Origin: Nitrospirota bacterium
GTDB taxonomy: Bacteria; JACPQY01
Reading direction: 5' to 3'
Assembly: GCA_016180645.1 (NCBI GenBank)
Contig: JACPAV010000016.1
Location: 1 to 64,000 of the forward strand
Length of the DNA stretch: 64,000 bases
Shown: one piece after another, positions 3,777-64,000 of the stretch
How positions within the stretch are numbered: the first letter of the stretch is position 1
Layout of the letters: each line of letters starts with the position of its first letter
Translations under genes and position numbers: made by a program
Notes under the pieces: model-generated
Databases searched by the model: none
What the model saw: the letters and a program-made list of their open reading frames with translations, nothing else
What the model was told of the DNA's origin: nothing

Positions 3777-6700
3777 TCAGGGCAAGTTCAACACGGCAGT
3801 CGGTATTAGCTTGTTCACGGTGGTGGTATCGCCGAGCTGGTAGCTTGCATTCGCGCCCCAGCATTTGACGGCGCCATCCGAGATCAACGCGCAAGTGTGG
3901 CCCCCCCCCGCGCCAACGTCCTCGCCGCCGGCGATGGCAATCACATTCGTGAGGCTGGAGACGGTCACTGGAATTGTGCTGCTGGCGGTCGAGCCATCAC
4001 CAAGCTCGCCTTTCACGTTCTTCCCCCAGCATTTCACCGTGCCGTCATCGATGAGGGTGCAGGTATGAGCGCCGCCCGCGGCAAGGTAGACCGCCCCGCT
4101 GGTCAGCGACGTCACCGCCACCGCGAAGTTCCGGTCGGTCGTCGTCCCGTCGCCCACCTGCCCGCCGTCGTTCTTTCCCCAGCACTTGACCGTGTCGTTG
4201 ATCATCCTCGCGCAAGTGTGGGACCCGCCTGAGGCGATCTGATACACCAGATTCACGGTGAGCGAACTGACGGCTACGGGGACGCTCCGATTGGTGTTCG
4301 TTCCATCGCCGAGTTGGCCGTTGGCGTTGAGTCCCCAACACACCACCGCCTTCCCCGCGCTCGCATTGAAAGCGCAGGCGTGATCGCCCCCCAGACTCAG
4401 GGCCACCACGTTGGTCAACGTAGTGACCGCGACCGGTGCGTACCGATCCACCGTCGATCCATCGCCCACCTGGCCGGCGTCATTCTTCCCCCAGCACTTG
4501 ACGAAGCCATCGACGGTTATGGCGCAGGAGTGGTTGAGGCCCGCCCCGACATTGAGGGCGTTCGAAAGCGACGTTACGGCCGTGGGGAAGGACCGGTTCA
4601 CCACCGTTCCGTCGCCGATCTGGCCGCTCCCATTGAGTCCCCAGCATTTCACATTGCCGCCTGCCACGAGGGCGCAGGCATGCGACCCACCCGCGGCCAA
4701 GGCCATCACGCCCGTCAGCGATGTGACAGGCACGACGGCAGCCCGATTCATTGTGGTCCCATCGCCCAGTTGCCCACTCGCGTTCGCGCCCCAGCACCGG
4801 GCGGTCCTGTCCGACACCAGCCCGCACGTAAAGGCCCCACCAGCGACCAGCCCCTCATGAAACGGGAGGGCCGATGGGCCTGCGCCCCGGTTGCGGTCTA
4901 TCCGAGGCACGATCATCCCCGGCGCCCCGATCGTGAAACTAGTAGTGACCGGCACGTACCGGTCGACCGTCGTTCCGTCTCCGAGCTGGCCGGAGTCGTT
5001 CAGTCCCCAGCACCGGACGGACCCATCGGCCACGATGGCGCAGCCATTGCTGTGGCCTGTCGTGATCTGGAGGGCCCCCGTCAACGACGTCACGACCACG
5101 GGTGTCCACCGGTCCAGCGTCGTCCCATCACCGAGCTTCCCATTCGCATTTTGTCCCCAGCATGCCGCGCGCCCGTCCGCCAAAAGCGCACAGTTCGCCG
5201 ACTGGAGGCCGTCCACGGCGAGCGCCCCCGTAAGGGAGCTCACGACCACAGGCGTATGTTTCTCCACGGTTGTTCCATCCCCGAGGGCCCCCCCCACGTT
5301 GCGGCCCCAGCACTTCACGAGGCCGTCCGGGGTCACCGCACAGGATTCACTTTCCACCCCGATGTCGCGGGCGTAGACCGGGCCGCTCACCACCACCGGC
5401 GCCAGGGCATTGTTCGTCGTTCCGTCCCCGACCGCGCCAAAGGCGTTGTACCCCCAGCACTTCACCTTGTGGTCGCCCCCGTCCATGCCACACATCGGTC
5501 CAGTCGGTCCCGGCCCGCTGCCCGCATCGATCATTCCGGAGGAAAGGCCGCCTATCCCAACCGGGCTCCAGAAGCCTGTGTTGGTATCCCCATGGCCGAC
5601 GTTGCCGTCGACATTGTATCCACCGCAATAGTAGCCGTGGCCTCCCCCGTTGGATTCCTTGCCGACGAAACAGCTTGTGTACCCGGCCGACACCGCCGTC
5701 GCCGCGATGAAGGTGACCGCCGAAGGCGTACTCTTGGTCACCGTCGTTCCGTCTCCGAGCTGGCCGTAGTCGTTGGCCCCCCAACACCTGACGGCACCGC
5801 TCCCCAGCACGGCACAATTCGACCACCGAGCCGAATCCAGCATTCCCACGCTTGTGAGTGTCGATACCTGGACGGGACTCGTCCGACCGGTAGTCGTCCC
5901 GTCCCCGAGCTGGCCTGACGTACCCATTCCCACGCACCGAACCGTCCCATCCGCGAGGAGGAAACAGGTGTGGTGCCAGCCTGTCGCCACCGAGACCACG
6001 TTGTACGTCCACGTGATGGCGCTTTTCTCCACGGTTGCCGTGCTCACGTGGCCGACCTGATCCTTTGCACGGGCGACGAAGTAGTAGCGGGTTCCTTTCG
6101 TGAGACTGCTGACGCTGTAGCTCGTCGCGCCCGCCGTTGACGTGTACGTCGCCGCAAACGATGAAACGCATCCTTGGTACGTCGTGGACTGGCAGATTTC
6201 GTAGACCAAGTCCCCTGCCGCCGTTACGTTGTTCGCGTCGGTCCCGGCCGGCCATGCCAAGTTGATCTGCGTGGTTGAAATAGTCGTGGCAGAGGTGAGA
6301 CCGTCAAACGACGGTGCCGCCGCGTCGCACTTGCGGGAGATTTGCTCACCCGTCCCGACGTTCCCCGCGTTGTCGGTACCCCGCACGTTGACGAGAAGGT
6401 TGCCATTGTCCGTGCAGGCCGCGCTCGTAGTGCTGCAATTCACACCGGTCAATGTGGCATTGGCCCAATTCAGACCGCCGTCCTTGGAGTACTGGCAGGA
6501 GGCGCCCCCGGATCCAGACCCGTCGCTGAGGGTTGCCGTGATGTCGAACGTCTCATCGACGCATGTCGAGGCTCCGCACGTCACGGTCGCGTTCGCCGTG
6601 GCCACCGCCGTCACCGAGGGAACTGCCGTGTCCAGGATGATCGCCGCGCTCACCGGGCCGGCGTTGATGTTGCCGGCGGCGTCCTTGACCCAGGCGTAGA

Positions 6701-8687
6701 GGGTTTTCGTTGCGTCGACGGTGGAGAGTGTCGCCGATACCGGTTCGCTTCCCCACCCGGCGTCGCTTTCGGCAGGCGCGGTGGGCTGGCCTTCCCTCAC
6801 GATCCACTTCGAGGCATCCGCATCGTTCGTAACACTCACATTGATCCCCACGGCGTTGCTTGCCGTGCACGCCGGGCAGTCTGCATCGCTCAGCGTCAGC
6901 GCCGGGTTCGCCGGGGCCACCGTGTCCAGCGTAATCGAGGCGCTCGCGGCCGCGCTCACGTTGTGCGCGGCGTCCTTCAGGTAGAGCTTCACCGTCTTCG
7001 ATCCGTCCGTGGTGGAGAGGGTGAAGCTGGCGGGCTTCGTGGCCGCCCATCCCGATGCCGTCGGCGCCGGCGCCGATCCTTCCGTCAGGAACCAGGCCGC
7101 TGCGCCCGTGTCGTTCCCTGGCGTCACGGAAACGGAGGTCGAATTCGTGTGGGTGGCCGAATCGCTGGTTGAATCCTTCAGGGCCAACGTGGGGGCGGCC
7201 GGAGCCGTCTTGTCATTCGTGAGCGAGAGTACTGTGCTCTGGTTCCCCGCCAGGTCGATTTGGACGACATATATCAGGTCGGACGAGTCGCCCTTGTTGT
7301 CGCCGATCCCGACGGGTCCGAAAGACCCGTCGGCGTTACTCGTGACACGTGACACGTTGCTCGTAAGAAGACCGTCCACATAGACTTCAACGGTTGCCTT
7401 GCCTTCAACGGCGCCGGCCGATCCCGAAATCTGGTCTTCCGTACCCGGGGCGTTCTGCGCCACGGCCACCTTCGCGGCATCCGGTTTCGCGGGCAGGGTC
7501 GTGTCGGTCTTGAACACGCCCACAGCAGGATCAGACTGCTCGTTCCCCGCCTCGTCCACGGCGCTCACCTTGAGCGTGTGGTCACCGTCGCCGAGTCCGC
7601 TCATCTCGTGCGAGGCGCTGCAACCCGCGAGAACGGATCCATCCAGAGAGCAGAGAAACGCGCAATTCGCCTCCGAGCAAGAGAGTGTAGCGGTCACGCT
7701 CGTGGCGCCGGCGGGAGTGACCGGTAGTCCCGAAATGGAGGCCGCCGGTGAGATGGTGTCTACGGTCCACGTGTGGCCGGCCGGCGTCGCGTCGGGCGTG
7801 CCTGTAGCCGACACGGCGCGCACTTTGAACGTGTGGCGGCCTTCGCTCAGGGCCGAGTAGGACTGCGGAGACGCGCACGGGGCAAACTCCGTCCCATCCA
7901 ACGAGCACTCGAACTTGATCCCGGAGTCCGTTGCAAACTTGAAGGAGACGGAATTCACCTTCGAAAACGCCCCCGGCTTGGCGGTGAGCGTGGTGCTCGG
8001 CTCGCCCGTTGCCGTGGCGGCCGGTGTGGTCGATCCGGGCTGAACCGTCGTCGTCGCACTCTGCGGGTCCGCGCCCGCCGTGGTCGTCTTGCCCGACTCA
8101 ATCGCCTGCGTGAAACTCTGCGTGAGTGAATCGGTCGCCTCCTGCACTGCCGCAGCCGTCGGCGCGTCGGAAGCGTTGTTGGGATTCGTCTGTAGCTGGA
8201 CCTCCAACCAGTTCGGCACACCATCCGAATCGGAATCCGGGGTGACGACACCCCCCTCCGCAATGGCAACCGTGGGCTTTTGGCCGGAGAAGTCGACCGA
8301 GGCCTGTACCGATACGTAAATGACGCTGCCGGACGCATCGGTGATCACGATCGCGAGGATACCCGTCAAGGCGGCGTCCTGCCTTCTGGCCGGCGCTCCT
8401 CGAACCCCCGCCAACGCTTGGGTTGGGACCTCCACGATCAATCTTGCCGCGTCAGCGTCTCGGTCTTCCTCGATCCTCAGCCGGAGTTTCTCAGCCACCA
8501 CGGCATTGTTGTAGACCACCGTGGCGACGCCGTCGGTCGATTGAACCAGTCCGGCTACAGCCTTGCTGGTCGGGATTTCGACCCTGACGGTGTCGGCCTC
8601 ACCGCCTCCACCGGAACAGCCTACCAATAGGAATGTCGCGGCCACTGCGGCCACCAGAACCCACATAATCATGTCAGATGTTTTCAT
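3777..8687 (-). CDS. Large lipoprotein with Ig-like/FN3 domains and 14 RCC1-type repeats
   Basis: 1636 residues. The N-terminus is a lipoprotein signal with lipobox LLVGC (Cys24) followed by SGGGG, so the mature protein should be membrane-anchored and exported. Next come a thrombospondin-3-like calcium loop (DSDSDGVPNWLE, about residue 155), several Ig-like domains (residues 230-780), and an FN3 domain (about 790-895). Fourteen RCC1-type repeats of the form CWGxNxxGQLGDGTT then run to the C-terminus. They fall into two groups of seven separated by a linker near residue 1250, suggesting two seven-bladed propellers. A good Shine-Dalgarno (AAGGAGGGAGC) precedes the ATG. Function is unknown; adhesion or binding at the surface is an inference from the architecture. 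Confidence 0.88.
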   Translation of the reverse strand: MKTSDMIMWVLVAAVAATFLLVGCSGGGGEADTVRVEIPTSKAVAGLVQSTDGVATVVYNNAVVAEKLRLRIEEDRDADAARLIVEVPTQALAGVRGAPARRQDAALTGILAIVITDASGSVIYVSVQASVDFSGQKPTVAIAEGGVVTPDSDSDGVPNWLEVQLQTNPNNASDAPTAAAVQEATDSLTQSFTQAIESGKTTTAGADPQSATTTVQPGSTTPAATATGEPSTTLTAKPGAFSKVNSVSFKFATDSGIKFECSLDGTEFAPCASPQSYSALSEGRHTFKVRAVSATGTPDATPAGHTWTVDTISPAASISGLPVTPAGATSVTATLSCSEANCAFLCSLDGSVLAGCSASHEMSGLGDGDHTLKVSAVDEAGNEQSDPAVGVFKTDTTLPAKPDAAKVAVAQNAPGTEDQISGSAGAVEGKATVEVYVDGLLTSNVSRVTSNADGSFGPVGIGDNKGDSSDLIYVVQIDLAGNQSTVLSLTNDKTAPAAPTLALKDSTSDSATHTNSTSVSVTPGNDTGAAAWFLTEGSAPAPTASGWAATKPASFTLSTTDGSKTVKLYLKDAAHNVSAAASASITLDTVAPANPALTLSDADCPACTASNAVGINVSVTNDADASKWIVREGQPTAPAESDAGWGSEPVSATLSTVDATKTLYAWVKDAAGNINAGPVSAAIILDTAVPSVTAVATANATVTCGASTCVDETFDITATLSDGSGSGGASCQYSKDGGLNWANATLTGVNCSTTSAACTDNGNLLVNVRGTDNAGNVGTGEQISRKCDAAAPSFDGLTSATTISTTQINLAWPAGTDANNVTAAGDLVYEICQSTTYQGCVSSFAATYTSTAGATSYSVSSLTKGTRYYFVARAKDQVGHVSTATVEKSAITWTYNVVSVATGWHHTCFLLADGTVRCVGMGTSGQLGDGTTTGRTSPVQVSTLTSVGMLDSARWSNCAVLGSGAVRCWGANDYGQLGDGTTVTKSTPSAVTFIAATAVSAGYTSCFVGKESNGGGHGYYCGGYNVDGNVGHGDTNTGFWSPVGIGGLSSGMIDAGSGPGPTGPMCGMDGGDHKVKCWGYNAFGAVGDGTTNNALAPVVVSGPVYARDIGVESESCAVTPDGLVKCWGRNVGGALGDGTTVEKHTPVVVSSLTGALAVDGLQSANCALLADGRAACWGQNANGKLGDGTTLDRWTPVVVTSLTGALQITTGHSNGCAIVADGSVRCWGLNDSGQLGDGTTVDRYVPVTTSFTIGAPGMIVPRIDRNRGAGPSALPFHEGLVAGGAFTCGLVSDRTARCWGANASGQLGDGTTMNRAAVVPVTSLTGVMALAAGGSHACALVAGGNVKCWGLNGSGQIGDGTVVNRSFPTAVTSLSNALNVGAGLNHSCAITVDGFVKCWGKNDAGQVGDGSTVDRYAPVAVTTLTNVVALSLGGDHACAFNASAGKAVVCWGLNANGQLGDGTNTNRSVPVAVSSLTVNLVYQIASGGSHTCARMINDTVKCWGKNDGGQVGDGTTTDRNFAVAVTSLTSGAVYLAAGGAHTCTLIDDGTVKCWGKNVKGELGDGSTASSTIPVTVSSLTNVIAIAGGEDVGAGGGHTCALISDGAVKCWGANASYQLGDTTTVNKLIPTAVLNLP

Positions 8688-9259: not shown

Positions 9260-9331
9260 GCCGGGGTAGCTCAACGGCAGAGCGGCGCATTCGTAATGCG
9301 TAGGTTGGGGGTTCAAGTCCCTTCCCCGGCT
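9260..9331 (+). tRNA. tRNA-Thr (anticodon CGT)
   Basis: 72 nt folding as a cloverleaf: acceptor GCCGGGG / CCCCGGC, D-stem GCTC / GAGC, anticodon stem GCGCA / TGCGT with loop TTCGTAA (anticodon CGT, reading ACG), and T-loop TTCAAGT. CCA is not encoded. This is the intact copy; its 3' 47 bp are duplicated at 15143-15189 as the far attachment site of an integrated island. Confidence 0.93.
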
Positions 9332-9332
9332 C
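9286..9332 (+). repeat. Attachment site att1 (47-bp direct repeat, tRNA side)
   Basis: Identical over 47 bp to 15143-15189. It covers the anticodon arm, T arm and acceptor 3' strand of tRNA-Thr plus one base, so integration leaves the tRNA intact. Confidence 0.92.
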
Positions 9333-15142: not shown

Positions 15143-15189
15143 CGCATTCGTAATGCGTAGGTTGGGGGTTCAAGTCCCTTCCCCGGCTC
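15143..15189 (+). repeat. Attachment site att2 (47-bp direct repeat, tRNA-Thr 3' fragment)
   Basis: Identical to 9286-9332. The 5' part of the tRNA is absent, so this copy is not functional as a tRNA; it marks the far end of the island, 22 bp from the end of dnaB. Confidence 0.92.
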
Positions 15190-32515: not shown

Positions 32516-34495
32516 TTGGACCAGCAGCGAATTCTCGACCAGATTCTCAACCGACTCTCGCTTCCCGACCTCGTCCAGAAATACACGCCCCTCAAGCTCT
32601 CCGGTAGACAGCATTCGGGGCTCTGCCCCTTCCACTCGGAGAAGACACCCTCGTTCAGCGTCAGCGCCGAAAAAGGGCTTTACCACTGCTTCGGCTGCGG
32701 TGCCGGCGGTAATTTGTTCACCTTTTACATGCAGATGGAGCGGGTCACATTCCCCGAGGCCGTCAAAGAGCTCGCGAGGCGGGCGGGCGTGGAGATTCCA
32801 TCCTCTCCCCAGGACGCCCGACGCGAAAGTCGGCGGGACGCGATGCGTCGGGCTCTGGGCGAGGCCCTGGCGTTCTTTCGGGAGAAGCTGTCCGACTCGC
32901 GGGAGGGATCGGCCACCCTCTCCTACCTGCGCGACCGCGGCCTGACGGAGGAAACCATCAACCGCTTCGAGGTCGGCTGGGCGCCGGCGGAGTGGGAATC
33001 GCTGGCCCAACATCTGCGGCGGAAGAAAATCGATCTCACACTGGCCGAAGCCTGCGGCCTCGTGCGAAAAAAAGCCTCCGGCCATTACGATTATTTCCGG
33101 GCTCGGATCATCTTCCCCATCCGGGATGCGCAAGGGCGACTCTCCGGCTTCGGCGGCCGGGTCCTTCCCGAAGCTCACGCCTCTCGCCCCTCGACCCCCA
33201 CGACGGGGGAAGTGCCGCGGGAGGGCACCCTGAAGGAATCGATGGAATCGGGCAGGGTACTTCGCAGCCTCCCGGAGCGGCCGCCTCCCACCTCCCGGGC
33301 GGAGCCCAAGTATCTCAACTCGCCGGACAGCGAGGTGTTCCGCAAGGGCGAAATCCTCTTTGGCCTCCAGGCGGGGCGGGATTCGATCCTCAAGCAGGGT
33401 GAAGTCACCCTCGTAGAAGGGTACATGGACGCCATCAGCCTCCATCAAGCCGGTCTATCGAACACGGTGGCTCCACTCGGCACGGCGCTCACAACGATCC
33501 ACATCCGGCTCCTCAAGCGTTTCTCACCCGCCTTTCGCATCCTCTTCGACCCCGACGAGGCCGGCGTCAAGGCGGCCCTCCGCTCACTCCCCCTGCTGTT
33601 GGCGGAAGGCATCCTCGCACGAGCCGTGCGACTGCCCGCGGGTCTGGACCCGGACGCCTTCGTTCGGGAGCGTGGCGCGGATGCCCTCCGAGCCCTATTC
33701 GCCTCGGATCAGGATCTCTTCGAAATGGCCATCGACGTGGTCCTCAAGGCCACTCCCCCAACCACGCCCCAGGGCAAGAAAGCGGCCGCGGACCGCCTCC
33801 TCGCCCTTCTTCGACCGGTAACAGATTCCATCATTCTCGACACTTATGTGCGGATGATCTCCCCCCGACTTGGGATTCGCGAGGATGCGCTTTGGCGTTC
33901 TCTCCCCCCGGCGGTTCAAGCGGGCACGGATCCTCGGCCCTCCCCCGTTCCACCCCGATCCATGCCGGGCGCCGGCCGTCTCGCCTCCCTTCGCGAAAAG
34001 CAGCGCGACCTCATGGAAAAGACCGCCCTCCAAGCCGCACTCGACGATCCCCGCCTCTGGTCCGTTCTCTTTCACGCCGGCCTTTTTTTCAAGGATCCGT
34101 GGCGCGCCAAGCTGATCGACACCGCCCATCGCCGGTTCGAAGGTCGGTCCCCGAGCCCCGAGGCGTTCGCAACGCTCTTCACCGAGAAGGACGATTGCGA
34201 GAATTTCAGCCGGCTCGCCTTGGAGCGACCTTCAGCGGTCACGGCATCGCCGGACGAGCGCCTGCACAACGCCCTCAACGGACTCTTTGACCTTGCCAAA
34301 AAGGAGAAATTGGTTTATGTAAGGAACCTTATTCAGAAAGCCGGCAAGCACAACGACGATGCAGAAATGAAGCGGCTATTGCTCGCGAAGAAGCGCGTCG
34401 AAAATTCGCAGCTCGAATGGCCGCTGGATCGAACGCCGGATCTTTTCGCGGAAAAGGAACCCGAGCCGTTGGACGGCCTTTCCGGGCGAGCATGA
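32516..34495 (+). CDS. dnaG: DNA primase DnaG, with an in-frame palindromic repeat insertion
   Basis: 659 residues. Zinc-binding domain [20 protein letters not shown] / [10 protein letters not shown] (residues 38-65), then the RNA polymerase domain: [33 protein letters not shown], and the TOPRIM motif [17 protein letters not shown] with [12 protein letters not shown] helicase-binding C-domain follows. Between GRVL and EPKYLN about 40 extra residues are inserted compared with typical DnaG; these include a 74-bp repeat (residues 231-256) found also in a hydrolase gene of this window. The TTG/GTG choice upstream is not needed: the ATG-like start at 32516 (TTG) gives the full zinc domain. The stop overlaps the rpoD start (ATGA). 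Confidence 0.94.
33208..33281 (+). repeat. 74-bp intragenic palindromic repeat, copy A (inside dnaG)
   Basis: Begins GGAAGTGCCGCG and ends CGGAGCGGC; 72 of 74 bases match 44220-44293 (minus strand). It is an imperfect palindrome: CCGC/GCGG and GGGAGG/CCTCCC outer arms, ACCCTG (33227) / CAGGGT (33253) inner arms. Translated here as [20 protein letters not shown] and LPER, without a stop. Confidence 0.88.
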
Positions 34496-43783: not shown

Positions 43784-44707
43784 TCAGTTCCTTTCGCCCA
43801 GGAAAGCGGACAATTGCCGGTTGAAATCATCCGGGTATTCCAGCATGGGACAGTGCCCGCAGGAAGGGAAAACGGTCAGGCGGGCATGGGGAAGCTCTTT
43901 CTGAAAAACGTGTGCGTTCTCAATCGGGAGCAGCGCGTCGTGATCCCCCCATGCGATCCAGGTTCGAGCTTCGATCTGACGAAGGCGCGCCCGAACGGGC
44001 GTCAAGAGCGCATTTTGGGCCGAGGACATGAAAGCATGGGCCCGGTTTCCGAAATCCGAACCGAAGAACTCCTGGAGGGCGTGCCGGACCATCTTCTCCA
44101 GGACCGGCGGCTCGGTGTAGAAGATGAGCCTCCGAATATAGTCGCGTACAACCTGCTCCCGCTTCTTGGAATCCTTCTCCACGCCCGAGGCCACGGCGAA
44201 GACCTGCGCGAGAAAGTCCGCCGCTCCGGGAGGCTGCGAAGTACCCTGCCCGATTCCATAGATTCCTTCAGGGTGCCCTCTCGCGGCACTTCCTCCCTCC
44301 TGGAGGTCGCCAAACAGAAGCTTCTCCGGGAAGATGTTGACCCCGGCCGCATCGACCAGCGTGAGACTGGAGATCCTCAGAGGATGGGCCAGGGCAAAAG
44401 CTTCGGAAATCATCCCTCCCATCGAATTGCCCACAAGGTGGACCCGCTCGATGCCCAACTTCTCCAGCAGCCCTTTCACCGTCGCGACAAAGAAATCCAT
44501 GGAATATTCCCGGCGGGGCTTTTCAGAATGGCCGAAGCCCGGCAAATCGAGCGCCACCACGCGGCGGCCGCGCGCGAAATAGGGGACATTCAGTTCCCAG
44601 TTCTCCTTGTAGCCGCCGAGACCGTGGACAAAGAGGACGGGTTCCCCCTGGCCCTCATCCAGGTAGCAGATATCGGCTCCATCGAGTCGAATGTGTTTTT
44701 CTTCCAC
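43784..44707 (-). CDS. Alpha/beta hydrolase, with in-frame palindromic repeat insertion
   Basis: 307 residues. The oxyanion region (PVLFVHGLGGYKENW), nucleophile elbow VHLVGNSMGGMISEAFAL (Ser), acid in TWIAWGDHDALLPIENA and catalytic His in PSCGHCPMLEYPDDFN are all visible. Residues 139-163 ([20 protein letters not shown] and PPGAA) derive from the 74-bp repeat also found in dnaG, and sit where the cap domain of such hydrolases begins, a tolerant loop. Substrate unknown; nearest relatives in architecture are ester- or C-C-bond hydrolases. It is co-directional with nuoN (33 bp) and gyrA (13 bp). Confidence 0.88.
   Translation of the reverse strand: MEEKHIRLDGADICYLDEGQGEPVLFVHGLGGYKENWELNVPYFARGRRVVALDLPGFGHSEKPRREYSMDFFVATVKGLLEKLGIERVHLVGNSMGGMISEAFALAHPLRISSLTLVDAAGVNIFPEKLLFGDLQEGGSAARGHPEGIYGIGQGTSQPPGAADFLAQVFAVASGVEKDSKKREQVVRDYIRRLIFYTEPPVLEKMVRHALQEFFGSDFGNRAHAFMSSAQNALLTPVRARLRQIEARTWIAWGDHDALLPIENAHVFQKELPHARLTVFPSCGHCPMLEYPDDFNRQLSAFLGERN
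44220..44293 (-). repeat. 74-bp intragenic palindromic repeat, copy B (inside the hydrolase gene)
   Basis: 72 of 74 bases identical to 33208-33281. The reading frame differs from copy A (repeat base 1 is codon position 1 here, codon position 3 there), so different peptides are made from the same DNA. Confidence 0.88.
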
Positions 44708-56034: not shown

Positions 56035-59000
56035 CTACGGGCAGGTGGCGGGGGCGAGGGAGTACCAGCCGCCACTGTCTGTGCCGATGGTGATTCTCTG
56101 ATTCCCGCCGATGGTCATGCGGGAAGGCTGCGACGAAATCGGGTTACCGAGGTCCCAGCTCTTGCAGACCTGGCCAAGGGCTGAACCCGCGCCGATGTCC
56201 ACCGCATAGAACTTGCCGTTGTTCGACCCGAAGTAGGCGATGTTGTTGTAAAGGAGCGGCGTGGATTTGACGGCGTTGTCCGCCCCACCGGAAGACTGAG
56301 GCGCGCTGGGGTTGGTGGCGTTCAGGTTTCTTCCCCCGCCGGAGATCACCGCGCCCGTGCTGAACGTGTATCCGTACAAGATTCCGTTGTTGGCGCCGAA
56401 GTAGATATTGCCGCCGATCCGCCCGACGCTCGATTCCACTCCACTGTTCGCCCCGTCCGCGTAGTTGACGGGGAAATTGGCGGAGGAATTCAGCGTCGCC
56501 ACATCGATCGAGTACAATCTCGAATCTGTCGGCGCATCGTCGCCTGAGGCGAAGAAGAACTCCACCAGACCCGCATTGGCCACCATGGCTCCATTGACCA
56601 CGCTGTTGTTGGCGGCCCCACGGCCCCCCGGGCCGGCGTCGTGGTAGCCGCTGATCGTCGCTGTTCCGGAGTACGGGCAAGTCGAGACACCGCATCCGGT
56701 TCCTTCATCCAGCGTTCCGCCGCCGTTGCTGATGCGGAGGACGCCCTCGCTGTCGGTCCCGATCCAAATCTTGTTGTTGAGCAGTGTGGGCGTGGAGGCC
56801 GTCGTCCACGATCCCCCGATGCAATCGTAATAGCGAAGCTGGCAGCCCCCGCAGATGTTGTAGCCGAACACGGCGGGCTTCACGCCGCTGTCCGTGTTGA
56901 ACGTGCCGGCGAAGAAGAACGTCCCGCCGCTTCCGGTCGGATCGTCGGCCGCGCACGACGGCGACGTCCATCCGGAGGGTATCCCACCCGACAGGCCGGT
57001 GGTAATGGAGTTGCCGACCGCCACCGGGAACCCGGTGGCCAGAGTGAGTGTGCCTCCGCTCCAAAGGAACCTGTAGAGGTTGCCCGAATTCGTCCCGATC
57101 CAGATTTGGGCTCCGCCGAAGGCCGAGCTGTTGAAGACATATGGCGCGGTGGTGATGTCACCGCTGACCTGTTGCTCGCTCGTCTTGGTTCCGTTCGCAT
57201 CCATCGCGACGATCCAGTCGCTCCCGACGCCGCGATCATCCGCCACGATGATCCCAAGGAGATTCCCGCTGGAGTCCAGGATGGGCGCCGGGAAACCTCG
57301 TGTCTTCCCCGCCACGTCATTGGAGATCGTCTCCAGCCAGTTCACGCATGCCTTCGGGTCGCCCGACGGGCAATCGTTGATCTCCCGCTCGAAATTCTCG
57401 CCCCAACCGGCTCCCGGCACCGCAGCCTTGGCCACTTGCAGCTTGGCGATCGTGCCGGCCGCGCCGCTGTTGGTCAGCGAGATGTTGTACGGAGTTCCCG
57501 ACGCGTTCGCCGCGTCGAACGACAGCCCCATGAGGTTCTTGGTGAAATTGCCCGAACGGGTGATGCTCATATGTGCGCACGGGCAGCTTGACGCCTGCGC
57601 GTTTTGGAAGGCGACATTCTCCAGGGCCGTGATCGAGGCGGCGGAGGACACTTCGAATCCCTGCGCATCTCCGCATTCGAAGGTCAGACCCGTGACGTTC
57701 ACCGTCCCGCTCACCTGGAAATCGAAGCGATCTCCGAGGGCCGGGCAGCCGGACGTGACGCTGGTAACCTTTGCCGTGGCGGACGTTGCGCGGAAAGTCC
57801 CCGCCACGTTCGCCTTCGCCCCTCCGGCCAGTTTCAAGGTTCCATTGTTCCCCAGATTGAAGCTCCCGGCGGCCTGGACGTCGAGATCGTTGGCGGAGGA
57901 GGTATTGTTCACCGTGACGGTGGCCGCGGGCGCGAGCGCCACGGAGGAACCGGTCACGACTACAGGAAGGCTGAACGTTTCCGTGTTTAGAAGCGCAGAG
58001 CCGGTGAATTCGACGGTTCCCGCCGTCTGATTGAACGCGCCGGACCTGGACCACACGCCCCCGACCTTCAGTCGGCCGCTCGCGTGGTTGAGCGTGTAGG
58101 CGCCCCCCGTGTTGATGGTGACATTCCCCGCCGCATCGAGCGTCGTCGCCGTGAGTTGTTCGAGCAGTCCGCCGCTGTTGATCACGATGTTGTTCGCGGA
58201 GGCCGAAGCGTTCACGTCAGGATCGTAGGGACCGCCTCCGCCGCATGCCGTGGCCCCAATATCCGGAATGGTCACGTTGGTCAGCGCCTCCGGCACAGCG
58301 CCTGTGTCCCAATTACCCGCGTCGGACCAGTTGCAGGAGACGCTGCCGGTCCACTGCGCATTGGAAGACCAATTGATCGTGCCCACTGAATCTTCGTCCC
58401 AGGTCTCCCCTCCCCCCGCCCCACCATAGTTCGAGAAGGTGAGCGCCGCACCGACAACCGTGGACACGTTGTACCCGCTCCCCGTCGTCGGGCACGTTCC
58501 CGGAATCGGATATCCCTTGAATGAGCAATCGAACGTGTTGCTGTCGAACGCGTAGTTGGCCGTAGGTTTCAGCACGCGCAGGTGGCGCGGGTCGGTCCCG
58601 TTGACGAATTTGAAGTCCGCCCTGTTCATTCGCGTAAACGTGGCCAGGTTGGCGCCCAGGGTCAATCCGCTCGCGTTGGCACACCGGAAATCCAGGCCGT
58701 CCACGTCCAGCGTCCCACCCGTGCTTCCGGCCGCGAAACCGAAGGTCGCCCCGCAGGCCGAAGACGGTGGTCCGGTATCGCTGGTCGAGGTGATCCGCGG
58801 CTTCTGGGACGCGCTGACGATGGTTGTGGCAAGCGTTCCGTTGACCGTAATCGTCTTCCCATTCGCCATCCGCAGGATGGGCTTGGCGGAGGAGGTCCCA
58901 TCCATTTTGAGCGTGCCCGCCGAGTTCACCGTGACGTCGCCCGATGCCGTGAGGACAGACGTTCCCATGTTCAGAGTTCCCGATACGGTCGTGGTTCCGG

Positions 59001-62000
59001 CAATCTCGTGTCCGGGAGAAGGGGTGCATGCCGTGCCGAGGTTGAACGTCCCGGCGCCCACGGAAAGCGCTCCGTTCACGTGGAGACATGCGTTTGCGGT
59101 CGCTGTGCCGCTTCCGCTCACGGTCAGGTTGAAGAAGTTGTTCGCGGCCGCGTGCGAGAGGGTCTGCGAGGAGCCGTCGAAGATGATCGTACCCGTGGTC
59201 GGCGCGAAGGCGCCCGCCGCGTCGGTCCAGTTCCCGGCCACCGTGTGAGTCAGGGCTGTGCCGGCGCCGAACGTTCCGGAAGCGAGGGTGAAGTTCCCGT
59301 TGATGTCCAGCGTGGCGCCCGCGGTGGCCATCGCCGTCGATTTGGTGATCGTGAGATGGTAGTAGGTGGCCCCCGGGATCACCACGCCCACGGCCGTATC
59401 GAAATTGAAAGTCCCCGTTCCGGCACTGAGGGTTCCCCAGATCGGCGTCGTGGCGCTGCCGTAGAAGACGGTCCCGGTGTTTCCGTTGAGAGACCCACCC
59501 GTGCCGTCGAGCGCCCCATTCTGGTCGAGGGTCCCCGTATTCACGTTGATCGTCGCATTGTTGTCGAACAGTCCCGCCACAACGAGGGTGCTGGAGGAAA
59601 GATTGATCGTTCCGTTGTTGGTCACACCGCCCGAGACCGTGTGCGACAGTCCGGCCCCGAGGTCCACCGTACCCGACGTCACGGTAAGATTGTTGTCCAG
59701 GGTGAAGGACGCGCCCAAGGTGGCCGTTTGTGCTCCCTTGCTCACTTTCAGATCGTAGAATTCGGGGCTCGGACCGGGATCGACGATGGTTTGTCCTGCG
59801 CCGGTCGAATCGAAGTCAATGGTTCCCGTCCCCCGGTTGAATGTGCCCCAAATGATGTTGGCGCCGTTGCCGTAGCGCAGCGTCCCCGAATTGCCGTTGA
59901 GCGTGCCCCCTGTTCCATCGAACGCGCCGTTCTGGTCGAGGATGCCGGAGTTCAAGTTCAGGATCGCGTTGTTGTCGAACAACCCGCCGACCGTCAACGT
60001 GCTGCTCGACAGGTTCGTGGTGGCGTTGTTCGTCCACGCCCCGCCGGCGCTGTGAGAAAGACCGGATCCCAGGTCGAGCGTGCCTCCGCTCACGGTCACC
60101 GCGCCGTTGATGGAAAGATTCGAGAGCGCGGTCAGCGTCACGGCCGCCGTCGGCGCATACGTCACATTGTAGAAATTCTGTCCCGAGGTGATCTTGACGG
60201 ATTGGCTTGCGGCGCCGTCAAAAATGAACGTTCCGGCCGCCGGCGCGAACGATCCGCCTGCGCTCGAATCCCAGTTTCCGGCTTCGTTGTGCGCGAACGT
60301 GGAGGGATCGAATGTCCCCGCCAGAAGCGCAAGATTGCCGTTGATGTCGAGTGTCCCTCCGGCCGTGGCCGCGCTTCCTCCCGACTTGTTGATTTTGAGG
60401 TTGTAGTACGTAAGGGTGGGAATCGTTTGGGCTCCCGCGCCGTTCCATTCGATCGTTCCGTTCGGCGCGGTCACGGTTCCCGTGGCGACGGTCAGCGCTC
60501 CGCCGATCTTCAAGACGCCCGATTCACCCAGGAAATCGACGATCCCGCCGCCGGTCAGATCCACGTTTCCTTCGGCCGTGACGGTGGTCCCGGTCTTCAG
60601 CTTGAGCGCGGCCTGATTGCTGGAGATCCGGATCGGTCCTTGGACCACGACGCTTCCGCTTTGGAGCTGGAAACTCCCGCTCTGGATCAGCAGCTCGTTC
60701 TGGATCGTCAGCGTGGAGGTGGATGTGAGCAAGATGTTGATGTCGAGCCCGCCCGATCCTTTGTTCACGACGATGCGGTACAGAGAGCCGCCGCTGGATT
60801 GGACCGATTTGGAAATCTCCCCTTCGAACTTGAGTGTGCCCGTGTCCGCGTTCAACGTGCCGTCGTTCTGGAAATCGCCCGAGACGGAGAGATCCTTGTT
60901 GGACAGGCTGATTTGCGCCCCTTGATTGATGGTCATGGTGATCACCGCGGCATTGACATCCAGAACCGGATAGGGAGTAAAGTTCTGAATGACCACGTCC
61001 TGGCTCGATGTGGGGGGAGCGCCGGTGGACCAGTTGGCGCCGAGGCTCCACTGGTTCGTGCCTCCCCCCGCCGTCCACTTGGCCGCGTCGATCCAACTCA
61101 CCGTTACGTTCGACGCATCCCAGTCATACGCCTCCCCCGTGGCGACGGGGGCGCAGCCGGCCCCCGTCGCATTCGAGATGAGAATGGTTACGGCCGCGCC
61201 CGCATCCGCGGTGACGACGTTTCCGGTTGCGGCGCCCGGCGTTCCGGAGCCCTGGTAGGACGTGTCACAGAAGAGGTTCGGGAACTGGAAGGTGGTCGGG
61301 GTCGCAATTCCGGCGGTCAACTGCATGTTGAGCGCAATCCCTCCGGATCCGCCGTTGTTGCTCAGCGAGCGGAACTCCATGTTCCCGATGTAGAGAATGT
61401 CCGTGCCGGAATTCAGACGGAAGCCGTTGGCATCCGCCGATTCGAACACGAAGCCGTGGACGTCCACTTTCGACCCGGAGTTTGCCGTCAATGAATAGAA
61501 GTTCGTGCCGACGGCGCCGGACGTGGTCATCCTCGGCTTGACGGCGGTCCCGCCCGTCCACGAGGTGGCGAATTTCCCGTTCGCGCCGTTGATCGTCACC
61601 GACTTCGCGCTACCCATCTTGAGGACGCTGCTGTCCTCCATCTTCAGCGTCCCTCCGGCGTTTACGGTCAGGTTGTCGCCGACCGTCAGTGTCGAACTGA
61701 GGAGGTTCAGCGTGCCCGACACGCTCGTCGTTCCGGCAACCGAATGGATGAGCGAGCTTCCAAGAGTGAACACGCCTGTGGTTACAGCCAGATTGCCGCT
61801 CACGCCAATGCCGGTGGACGCCGTCACCGTCCCCGTGCCGGCGACCGCAAGATGGTAGAAGGTTTGGCCCGCCGCCAGGGCGATCGCTTGAGACGTTCCA
61901 TCCAGCGTGACGGTTCCCGCCGCCGGAGCGAACGTTCCGCCCGCGGTGGAGCTCCAGTTTCCGTAAAGCGTATGGGAGAACGTGGAGGGCTCGAATGTGC

Positions 62001-64000
62001 CGGACGTCAGCGTGAAGTTCCCGTTGATATCCAGCCCGCCGCCGGCCGTGACCGAACCTCCACTCTTGGACACCGCAAGGTCGAAATACGTGTCCGCCGG
62101 AACGGTTGCGCTGGAAGCGCCGTCGAATTCGACCGTTCCGCTCGCTTCGTTCAGCGTTCCCCACACGGGCGTCGCGCCGCTGCCGTACCGGAGGCGACCC
62201 GTGTTGAGATTGAGAGTGCCGCCCGTCCCATCGAAAGCCCCGTTCTGGTCCACGGTGCCGGGCCCTACGTTCAGCGTGGCATTGTTGTCGAAGAGGCCGT
62301 TCGCGGTGAGAAGAGTACCGGAGAGATCCATCGTGACCGTCGCGTTGTTCGTCAGAGTCCCGCCTACGGTCATGTTTCGCGCGGAGGCGTCGTCCAGATT
62401 AAGCGTGCCCGACGTGACGGTCAGATTTCCATTCAGAGTCAGGTTGCCGGTGACGGTCTTCGTCGAGCCGGAAAGAGTCATCGAGTTGTACTGGTTCCAT
62501 GTCGCATCCGTCAGCGCGGGGATGTTCTGGGCGGTGGACCCGTCGAACTGGATCGTGCCGGTGTTGAGCGGAGCGGCCGCGTCACGCAGTTGAAGCCCCG
62601 CGGCGGAGAGCGTGTCGCCCACCTTGAGGAGACCCGTTCCGGACCATTCGATCCCCAGCGTGGAGCCGGAGCCCGGTGTCACGTGGCGATCCACATCCAG
62701 CGCGCCCGTGCTGATCGTGGCCGCGCCGTTTTGAGACGCGTCGTTCACCACGTCCTTGGCCACGGCCACCGTGTAGCCGCCGATCGCAAACGTCCCCGCG
62801 GCCAGTTTCAGGTTGTTCGAGATGCCGAGATTGGACCCCGCCGACTTGGCGCCCGACGCGTCCACGGTCAGATTGTAGAAATCGCCCGAGCCGGAGGACG
62901 TCACGGTCGCGGCGCCACCTGCCAAGGCGACGGTGGTGTTGCCGATGACAAAATTGCCGGAATCGGACCAGTTGCCCGAGACGCTGAGGGTCGGGGCTCC
63001 GGTCGCGCCGGCGTCGAGCGTGCCGTTGGCGCCGATCGTCACCGTTCCGCTCACGGATACGTCCGGATCGGCCGGACCATTCGAGACGATGAGGAAGCTG
63101 GCCGCGGTCCCCCCGGTGCCCAAGCTCAGGGACCCGGCGGTGAGGGACGACGTTTTCAAATCGACCATGCCTCCATTCAGGGTCATGGAGCCGGACACGG
63201 AGTGCGAAAGCACCGACCCTCCGTCCAGGTTCAGCGTGCCGGCCTGGACGGTGAGTCCGCCCGAGACCGTCAGCGCGCCCAAGGCGGTAACGCTTCCTCC
63301 TACGCCGTTGTTGACGGTGAGATTGTAGAAATTGGATGGGGTGGCGACATTCTGAGGCGCCGTGCCGCCGAAGGTCACCGTGCCGGTCCGTTCGGTGAAA
63401 CTTCCGGTGCGCGTCCAATGCCCCTTGACTTCAAGATTGTACGAGGAGGCCGACGCATCGAGCGTGGCGCCGGAGGCGATCTCGACGTTGTTTCCGACCG
63501 CATTGGAGCCGGTCTGGTGGCATCCGAGGGAGTAGGTCGCCGCGGAGCTGAATTTCAGGTTGTAGTAAGGTTCGCAGGGAATCGTCTGACTGGTTCCATT
63601 GAAGTGGAAGGTTCCGGTGCCGGTGACGTTTGCGGCAGCAGGCTGATTGTCGGTCACGGCTCCAGACGTCTGGAAAGTTCCGGTTCCCAGATTCAGCACC
63701 GAGCCTGAACTGAGCACGACGCTTCCGGACCCCGCATAGGTTGTGGAGCCGAGGTTCAGCGTCCCGCCGATCGTGGTCGTTCCGGCCGCGGTCAGGTTCA
63801 CGGACGGCAGCGTAATGCTGTTGGACCCGATGGTGAGATGGTTGATCGTGAACGATCCGGACCCGCCGATGGTTTGCGAGGCCGCCGAGGATGGGCTCAT
63901 GGAGAGCGTGCCGGAACCTGCACTGAGCGCGCCGTCGTTGGTCAGATTTCCAAGCAGGGTCAAGGATGATGTCCCCACCGCGAGGGTCGCGGACGATTCA
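56035..64000 (-). CDS. Giant repetitive beta-rich surface protein with C-terminal PQQ-like propeller (5' end outside window)
   Basis: At least 2654 residues are visible and the frame is still open at base 64000, so the N-terminus is missing. The visible part consists of beta-solenoid repeats of about 70-90 residues with recurring phrases such as GGTLDINGNFTLTSGTFEPS, NLTVNAGGTLKMDG and TVTLDGTSQAI, rich in Gly, Thr, Ser, Asn. Two linker motifs NWSDAGNWDTGAVP / NQWSLGANWSTGAPP separate blocks. The last 330 residues (DSSGNLLGIIVADDRGVGSD, IWIGTNSGNLYRFLWSGG, PQSSGGADNAVKSTPLLYNN, KFYAVDIGAGSAL) look like a PQQ/WD-type beta-propeller. No TM anchor or sorting tag is evident at the C-terminus. It is a likely secreted or surface adhesin; this is an inference. 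Confidence 0.82.
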   Translation of the reverse strand, partial: ESSATLAVGTSSLTLLGNLTNDGALSAGSGTLSMSPSSAASQTIGGSGSFTINHLTIGSNSITLPSVNLTAAGTTTIGGTLNLGSTTYAGSGSVVLSSGSVLNLGTGTFQTSGAVTDNQPAAANVTGTGTFHFNGTSQTIPCEPYYNLKFSSAATYSLGCHQTGSNAVGNNVEIASGATLDASASSYNLEVKGHWTRTGSFTERTGTVTFGGTAPQNVATPSNFYNLTVNNGVGGSVTALGALTVSGGLTVQAGTLNLDGGSVLSHSVSGSMTLNGGMVDLKTSSLTAGSLSLGTGGTAASFLIVSNGPADPDVSVSGTVTIGANGTLDAGATGAPTLSVSGNWSDSGNFVIGNTTVALAGGAATVTSSGSGDFYNLTVDASGAKSAGSNLGISNNLKLAAGTFAIGGYTVAVAKDVVNDASQNGAATISTGALDVDRHVTPGSGSTLGIEWSGTGLLKVGDTLSAAGLQLRDAAAPLNTGTIQFDGSTAQNIPALTDATWNQYNSMTLSGSTKTVTGNLTLNGNLTVTSGTLNLDDASARNMTVGGTLTNNATVTMDLSGTLLTANGLFDNNATLNVGPGTVDQNGAFDGTGGTLNLNTGRLRYGSGATPVWGTLNEASGTVEFDGASSATVPADTYFDLAVSKSGGSVTAGGGLDINGNFTLTSGTFEPSTFSHTLYGNWSSTAGGTFAPAAGTVTLDGTSQAIALAAGQTFYHLAVAGTGTVTASTGIGVSGNLAVTTGVFTLGSSLIHSVAGTTSVSGTLNLLSSTLTVGDNLTVNAGGTLKMEDSSVLKMGSAKSVTINGANGKFATSWTGGTAVKPRMTTSGAVGTNFYSLTANSGSKVDVHGFVFESADANGFRLNSGTDILYIGNMEFRSLSNNGGSGGIALNMQLTAGIATPTTFQFPNLFCDTSYQGSGTPGAATGNVVTADAGAAVTILISNATGAGCAPVATGEAYDWDASNVTVSWIDAAKWTAGGGTNQWSLGANWSTGAPPTSSQDVVIQNFTPYPVLDVNAAVITMTINQGAQISLSNKDLSVSGDFQNDGTLNADTGTLKFEGEISKSVQSSGGSLYRIVVNKGSGGLDINILLTSTSTLTIQNELLIQSGSFQLQSGSVVVQGPIRISSNQAALKLKTGTTVTAEGNVDLTGGGIVDFLGESGVLKIGGALTVATGTVTAPNGTIEWNGAGAQTIPTLTYYNLKINKSGGSAATAGGTLDINGNLALLAGTFDPSTFAHNEAGNWDSSAGGSFAPAAGTFIFDGAASQSVKITSGQNFYNVTYAPTAAVTLTALSNLSINGAVTVSGGTLDLGSGLSHSAGGAWTNNATTNLSSSTLTVGGLFDNNAILNLNSGILDQNGAFDGTGGTLNGNSGTLRYGNGANIIWGTFNRGTGTIDFDSTGAGQTIVDPGPSPEFYDLKVSKGAQTATLGASFTLDNNLTVTSGTVDLGAGLSHTVSGGVTNNGTINLSSSTLVVAGLFDNNATINVNTGTLDQNGALDGTGGSLNGNTGTVFYGSATTPIWGTLSAGTGTFNFDTAVGVVIPGATYYHLTITKSTAMATAGATLDINGNFTLASGTFGAGTALTHTVAGNWTDAAGAFAPTTGTIIFDGSSQTLSHAAANNFFNLTVSGSGTATANACLHVNGALSVGAGTFNLGTACTPSPGHEIAGTTTVSGTLNMGTSVLTASGDVTVNSAGTLKMDGTSSAKPILRMANGKTITVNGTLATTIVSASQKPRITSTSDTGPPSSACGATFGFAAGSTGGTLDVDGLDFRCANASGLTLGANLATFTRMNRADFKFVNGTDPRHLRVLKPTANYAFDSNTFDCSFKGYPIPGTCPTTGSGYNVSTVVGAALTFSNYGGAGGGETWDEDSVGTINWSSNAQWTGSVSCNWSDAGNWDTGAVPEALTNVTIPDIGATACGGGGPYDPDVNASASANNIVINSGGLLEQLTATTLDAAGNVTINTGGAYTLNHASGRLKVGGVWSRSGAFNQTAGTVEFTGSALLNTETFSLPVVVTGSSVALAPAATVTVNNTSSANDLDVQAAGSFNLGNNGTLKLAGGAKANVAGTFRATSATAKVTSVTSGCPALGDRFDFQVSGTVNVTGLTFECGDAQGFEVSSAASITALENVAFQNAQASSCPCAHMSITRSGNFTKNLMGLSFDAANASGTPYNISLTNSGAAGTIAKLQVAKAAVPGAGWGENFEREINDCPSGDPKACVNWLETISNDVAGKTRGFPAPILDSSGNLLGIIVADDRGVGSDWIVAMDANGTKTSEQQVSGDITTAPYVFNSSAFGGAQIWIGTNSGNLYRFLWSGGTLTLATGFPVAVGNSITTGLSGGIPSGWTSPSCAADDPTGSGGTFFFAGTFNTDSGVKPAVFGYNICGGCQLRYYDCIGGSWTTASTPTLLNNKIWIGTDSEGVLRISNGGGTLDEGTGCGVSTCPYSGTATISGYHDAGPGGRGAANNSVVNGAMVANAGLVEFFFASGDDAPTDSRLYSIDVATLNSSANFPVNYADGANSGVESSVGRIGGNIYFGANNGILYGYTFSTGAVISGGGRNLNATNPSAPQSSGGADNAVKSTPLLYNNIAYFGSNNGKFYAVDIGAGSALGQVCKSWDLGNPISSQPSRMTIGGNQRITIGTDSGGWYSLAPATCP

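Follow-up and report, generated by a model that had tools for sequence, protein, structure and literature searches.

The stretch of DNA analysed here (64,000 nt, referred to as the window) contained a single strong inverted repeat pair, located by a repeat search at 33192-33286 and 44215-44309 with 92% identity. The two members of the pair, called copies A and B, were found inside the genes for DNA primase and an alpha/beta hydrolase, respectively, and were identical at 83 of 90 nt once trimmed to elements of 90 nt each. The features of the two sites were:

32516-34495, plus strand: host gene of copy A, DNA primase DnaG, 659 aa (Pfam PF08275, PF01807 and PF13155; PDB)
33193-33282, plus strand: copy A, long-form element of 90 nt, in frame in dnaG and starting at codon position 3; gap in solved primases; missing from the dnaG of G001, a genome of the same family
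43784-44707, minus strand: host gene of copy B, alpha/beta hydrolase, 307 aa (Pfam PF00561 and PF12697; PDB relatives)
44219-44308, minus strand: copy B, long-form element of 90 nt, in frame, hydrolase residues 134-163; without counterpart in the G001 orthologue
44292-44308, minus strand: hairpin 1 of copy B, GA-CCTCC-AGGAG-GGAGG (sequence and model structure)
44220-44287, minus strand: hairpin 2 region of copy B, arms GCCGC ... GCGGC with the long-form middle (sequence read against the model structure)
44231-44273, minus strand: long-form middle of copy B, 43 nt where the short form has the 4 nt GGAG (placed by comparing the two forms)

An earlier sequence-only reading had claimed the pair as a real repeat, which was borne out by the 83/90 identity, by 23 BLAST matches in the genome and by at least 33 copies found with a covariance model (R1). 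That reading had placed copy B at 44220-44293, which covers most of the copy but falls short of the element proper, and the inserted residues at 139-163, which overlap the bulk of the range found here. It was correct in assigning copy B to the minus strand at codon position 1 and copy A to codon position 3, and in noting that the third sense frame is closed by a TGA in each copy. Ser95, Asp257 and His285 of the hydrolase, assumed from the fold to be catalytic, all lie outside the insert, as had been proposed, and are invariant in alignment A5, with the exception of the Ser column, which was taken from the GNSMGG motif. Hydrolase relatives (PDB relatives and alignment A5) were variable in the cap region that holds the insert, and in A5 residues 139-163 did not form a conserved part of the family. 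A single-sequence AlphaFold model of the hydrolase was uninformative (mean pLDDT 45, with the insert as the lowest stretch).

Elsewhere in the window, the 3' half (9286-9332) of a tRNA-Thr gene (9260-9332) was repeated exactly over 47 nt at 15143-15189, 5.9 kb downstream, as if the two marked the boundaries of an integrated island. Two long repeat-containing ORFs were also present, one of 1636 aa (3777-8687) with a family of ~150-nt repeats (13 copies among those listed), and a repeat-rich one of 2647 aa (56035-63978) that extended nearly to the window's end.

Empty sites and direction of the event

The comparison of orthologues that had been suggested for the hydrolase was carried out against G001. 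The hydrolase orthologue (64% identical) had no counterpart of residues 134-163, and the insert was likewise missing from dnaG, which lies in the same contig stretch as the hydrolase orthologue. Since both G001 orthologues are without the insert, there were either insertions in the present genome or losses in G001. Alignments with solved DnaG, SucD and MurD broke or gapped at the element positions, which favours insertion over loss; we infer insertion as the direction of the event, the G001 data themselves showing absence and not direction.

The insertion site was mostly Y^GA, without a duplicated target. Where copies interrupt heptamer arrays, (CTCACGA)n, the register of the array was kept across several copies (read by eye), suggesting clean insertion without target duplication. 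Target-site duplications, which the sequence-only reading had put forward as something to look for at both copies, were not seen, the heptamer arrays keeping register and the empty G001 site of copy B having no duplicated flank; nor were terminal inverted repeats seen in the copies read by eye. Elements within short tandem arrays were noted by eye at loci L026, L027, L032, L033, L035, L038, L045 and L047, with array units of CTCACGA, GATCACGG or GTCCTGC, and some of them were translated within genes.

Copies, structure and distribution of the repeat

The R1 copies in this genome, a lower bound with 150 of 5252 first-look candidates scored, comprised 27 short copies (26 of 51-52 nt and one of 60 nt), five long copies (90 nt) and one weak match at 29 bits; in G001 there was one match. 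All five long copies shared the same long middle, and the long form presumably spread as one unit; their hosts were dnaG, the hydrolase gene, sucD, a polysaccharide-export gene and the gene of an Ig-domain protein. The coding copies examined were 51, 60 or 90 nt long, lengths divisible by three; the short form adds 17 residues to the host protein and the long form 30 with no frameshift. The two 52-nt copies were outside called genes. The repeat appears to have spread through the chromosome as a family that extends well beyond the pair first noted, with relatives in other groups, and its hosts are often ordinary genes that are probably essential. Tandem copies adjoin with GGCC meeting GACC at the junction. 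A 60-nt variant (L072, 1514-1573) carried an extra 9 nt in hairpin 2 and lay at the C-terminal end of NuoB, and one copy of the present genome (L040) was found 15 nt after a tRNA-Cys.

The short form reads as two hairpins, CCYCC-AGGAN-GGRGG and GCCGC-GAGA-GGGC-AGGA-GCCC-GGA-GCGGC, and standard pairs made up 96.8% of pair cells in 18 short copies. Among gammaproteobacterial matches (n = 81), two-sided changes were seen at 13 of 14 pairs, with 97% paired, and the covariation score was 0.539 versus at most 0.098 for slid versions. Across alignments A1 and A4, GGA was present in 86 of 94 hairpin-1 loops and 92 of 94 hairpin-2 loops, and G-U pairs accounted for ~1%. Of the 18 short copies in A1, 3 had CACGA in hairpin 1 instead. 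The base that precedes the element, Y(-1), paired with position 20 (R20) in 47 of 49 sequences (C-G in 41 and T-A in 6; Fisher p = 6e-7), the set being those caught by a strict pattern, only 9 of them gammaproteobacterial. The stretches scanned gave no match of the repeat to any Rfam family.

In the order of G060 (an Acidiferrobacterales genome, the source of locus L063), R1 copies were found in 18 of 57 genomes, and copies were also present in G030, G117 and G118. Matches per genome reached 26 in G060, 20 in G110 and 8 in G091, where the listed ones were all on contig C1. A second model, R2, built from the gammaproteobacterial matches, found copies in at least 72 of 274 gammaproteobacterial genomes sampled (about a quarter) and in at least 8 of 192 relatives, the present genome (G000) included. 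In the large R1 and R2 searches the filters were stricter and few candidates were scored in each genome, which makes their counts lower bounds. Gammaproteobacterial copies near genes were mostly intergenic and sometimes clustered; some were in frame, with gaps of fitting size in the alignments of BipA and CoaBC, and those that were coding according to the gene caller (9 sense, 6 antisense) had no orientation bias.

No blastn match to either of two variants was found in phages. In plasmids the short form was unmatched, and the gammaproteobacterial variant gave three partial matches at E = 1, none covering 80%. One viral contig record matched the short-form pattern and was judged a chance match by its sequence, while the gammaproteobacterial pattern had no match in viral contigs. 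Proximity to tRNA genes was rejected as a general rule, only 6 of 112 copies lying within 400 nt of a tRNA.

Reading frame, orientation and possible movers

Altogether, a gene caller based on codon usage and three-frame translations gave a count of 22 coding insertion sites in this genome, with a tandem pair counted as one and gene starts uncertain at L026 and L027. The 21 sense copies used the three frames in the proportion 13:7:1, which fits the codon phases of C^GA sites in the genes of the window (58:33:9%; p = 0.78), so the frame appears to be set by the target and not by choice of peptide. The frame in use was open in coding copies, except in an MsrA-like C-terminal case, and on either strand most frames of the short copies were open, so that purging of disruptive insertions would suffice. 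Of the proposal that this is a DNA-level mobile element selected to be harmless to proteins, the insertion of a repeated element is thus well supported, but selection for harmlessness receives no support from frame use.

In our view copies A and B probably arose by separate insertions of a mobile repeat that is non-autonomous (51 nt in the short form, 90 nt in the long form) and can fold into two adjacent GGA-loop hairpins. The repeated copies, the empty orthologues in G001, the structure maintained by compensatory changes and the insertion, mostly at Y^GA and with no target duplicated, all support this reading. The repeat would be mobilised in trans by some enzyme that reads the hairpins in single-stranded form, as DNA or RNA, its reading frame would follow from the codon phase at the target, and the host protein would tolerate the 17 or 30 added residues. 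The search for a mobiliser covered the Y1_Tnp family, and no autonomous partner or transposase was found for the repeat.

The orientation of the copies counts against this explanation. In 21 of the 22 coding sites the repeat was sense to its host gene, the lone antisense copy (L036) being in a gene without a Pfam match, whereas C^GA sites in the genes of the window were equally common in sense and antisense (802 versus 806; p = 5e-6 for the 21:1 bias against such an equal supply). Stops closed few copies in either orientation, and the bias is left unexplained by target supply or stops. The eight non-coding events in this genome (gene-caller output read by eye) comprised 6 sense and 2 antisense (p = 0.29). 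Informally, a cause in the replication strand is argued against by copies A (plus strand) and B (minus strand), each sense to its own gene within 11 kb.

The sense orientation is one of several observations in favour of reading the repeat as an RNA module for CsrA-family proteins, which would place two ANGGA-like loops in mRNAs, to act there as a sponge or a site of regulation, mobility being secondary; we consider this unlikely. The GGA loops stand on stems that change by compensation, the CsrA family (PF02599) was found in all four genomes searched (G000, G001, G030 and G060), and R2 matches at E < 0.001 were found in some seven of the scanned csrA neighbourhoods. The loop motif also resembles CsrA sites known from CsrB and SELEX motifs, a lead and not a demonstration. 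However, within the order of G060, csrA was present in 15 of 18 genomes with R1 matches versus 38 of 39 without (p = 0.09), so that dependence on CsrA found no positive association there, and no csrA match was found in G079, G108 and G110 (completeness not reported), of which G110 has 20 R1 matches. The CACGA loops of hairpin 1, the scarcity of G-U pairs, which suggests that both DNA strands matter, and the unbiased orientation of gammaproteobacterial copies speak against it as well. Copies near csrA were mostly found, by eye, after csrA and tRNA-Ser and next to or inside an incomplete tRNA tail, and the tRNA may therefore be what matters.

At loci L193, L088, L201, L195 and L228, where a copy lay downstream of csrA and tRNA-Ser(GCT), the copy seemed to adjoin or lie inside a second, incomplete tRNA-Ser tail. 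The tRNA tails at L204, L211, L198 and L202 contained, by eye, another kind of insert, likewise with GGA hairpins (pattern GAGCG..CGGGAGCG..GGCCCGAAGGGC..CAGGACGG-like). Genomes G086 and G092 had 12 and 16 CsrA-family matches, respectively, some of them partial.

Movement as a REP-like sequence by a Y1 (RAYT) transposase is likewise of low probability. In its favour, the repeat is short, palindromic and chromosomal, and in gammaproteobacterial loci it is intergenic and at times clustered; the transposase family (PF01797) was present in all five genomes searched (G000, G001, G030, G117 and G118). In the order of G060, however, PF01797 was unassociated with the repeat (13 of 18 genomes with it versus 29 of 39 without; p = 1) and gave no match in the carriers G060 (26 R1 matches) and G091 (8), which speaks against the Y1 transposase as the mobiliser. 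A past or since-lost RAYT may be compatible with its absence from these two genomes.

A further possible reading of the sense bias is a widespread double hairpin that brings GGA loops of the CsrA type into mRNAs and whose insertion or retention is linked to transcription. This would account for the 21 of 22 sense coding copies in the present genome but must face the unbiased orientation in gammaproteobacterial loci, and we regard it as rather improbable.

A peptide linker under selection, as opposed to a parasite, is very improbable: the commonest frame does give a hydrophilic peptide, DLQEGGSAARGQEPGAA, and gammaproteobacterial copies give similar ones, but frame use equals the target-phase expectation, most copies can be read through in several frames, and the hosts are unrelated enzymes whose solved relatives, where checked (DnaG, SucD, MurD, BipA and CoaBC), are without the stretch. 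A translational bypassing element (byp-like) skipped by ribosomes is scarcely credible, for although short hairpin inserts do lie within conserved genes, ribosome skipping needs neither the triplet lengths of the coding copies (51, 60 and 90 nt) nor the open frame kept in all but the MsrA-like case.

For the mobile double-hairpin repeat that we prefer, the sense bias, the clean insertion at Y^GA, the pairing of Y(-1) with R20 and the GGA loops make both a mover and a possible RNA-binding reader directly testable.

Comparison with known systems

The repeat resembles REP sequences and their RAYT systems in being short, palindromic, multi-copy and chromosomal, and in being mostly intergenic in gammaproteobacterial loci. 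It differs in its two GGA-loop hairpins, in the lack of association with Y1_Tnp and in that most copies are coding in the present genome, where the 22 coding insertion sites depart from the extragenic location of REPs. With MITEs and IS200/IS605-derived PATEs it shares non-autonomy, many copies and hairpin ends, but neither terminal inverted repeats nor target duplication were seen in its copies by eye, and no autonomous relative was found.

The TwoAYGGAY RNA motif (RF01731) and CsrB/RsmZ-type RNAs are similar in their two hairpins with GGA-containing loops, whereas the present repeat had no Rfam match in the stretches scanned and is dispersed in the chromosome, often within coding sequence in this genome. 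Small two-hairpin repeats that are considered mobile, the double-hairpin elements, are known from fungal mitochondria; these are alike in form, as far as descriptions go, while the repeat described here is bacterial.

No description of the repeat was found in the open-licence literature searched; given its broad spread, and as an in-frame repeat family in free-living lineages, annotated proteins may carry such peptides unrecognised. In-frame insertion of repeats into housekeeping proteins is known mainly from Rickettsia. The Rickettsia palindromic elements are palindromic repeats of ~150 bp that are found in frame in unrelated protein genes, where they are tolerated, and that encode a conserved peptide (PMC10969869). 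Compared by description, the present repeat is likewise inserted in frame in ORFs of unrelated function but is of 51, 60 or 90 nt in its coding copies, uses several frames and has another host range; it may work like the Rickettsia elements, by analogy and with no claim of membership.
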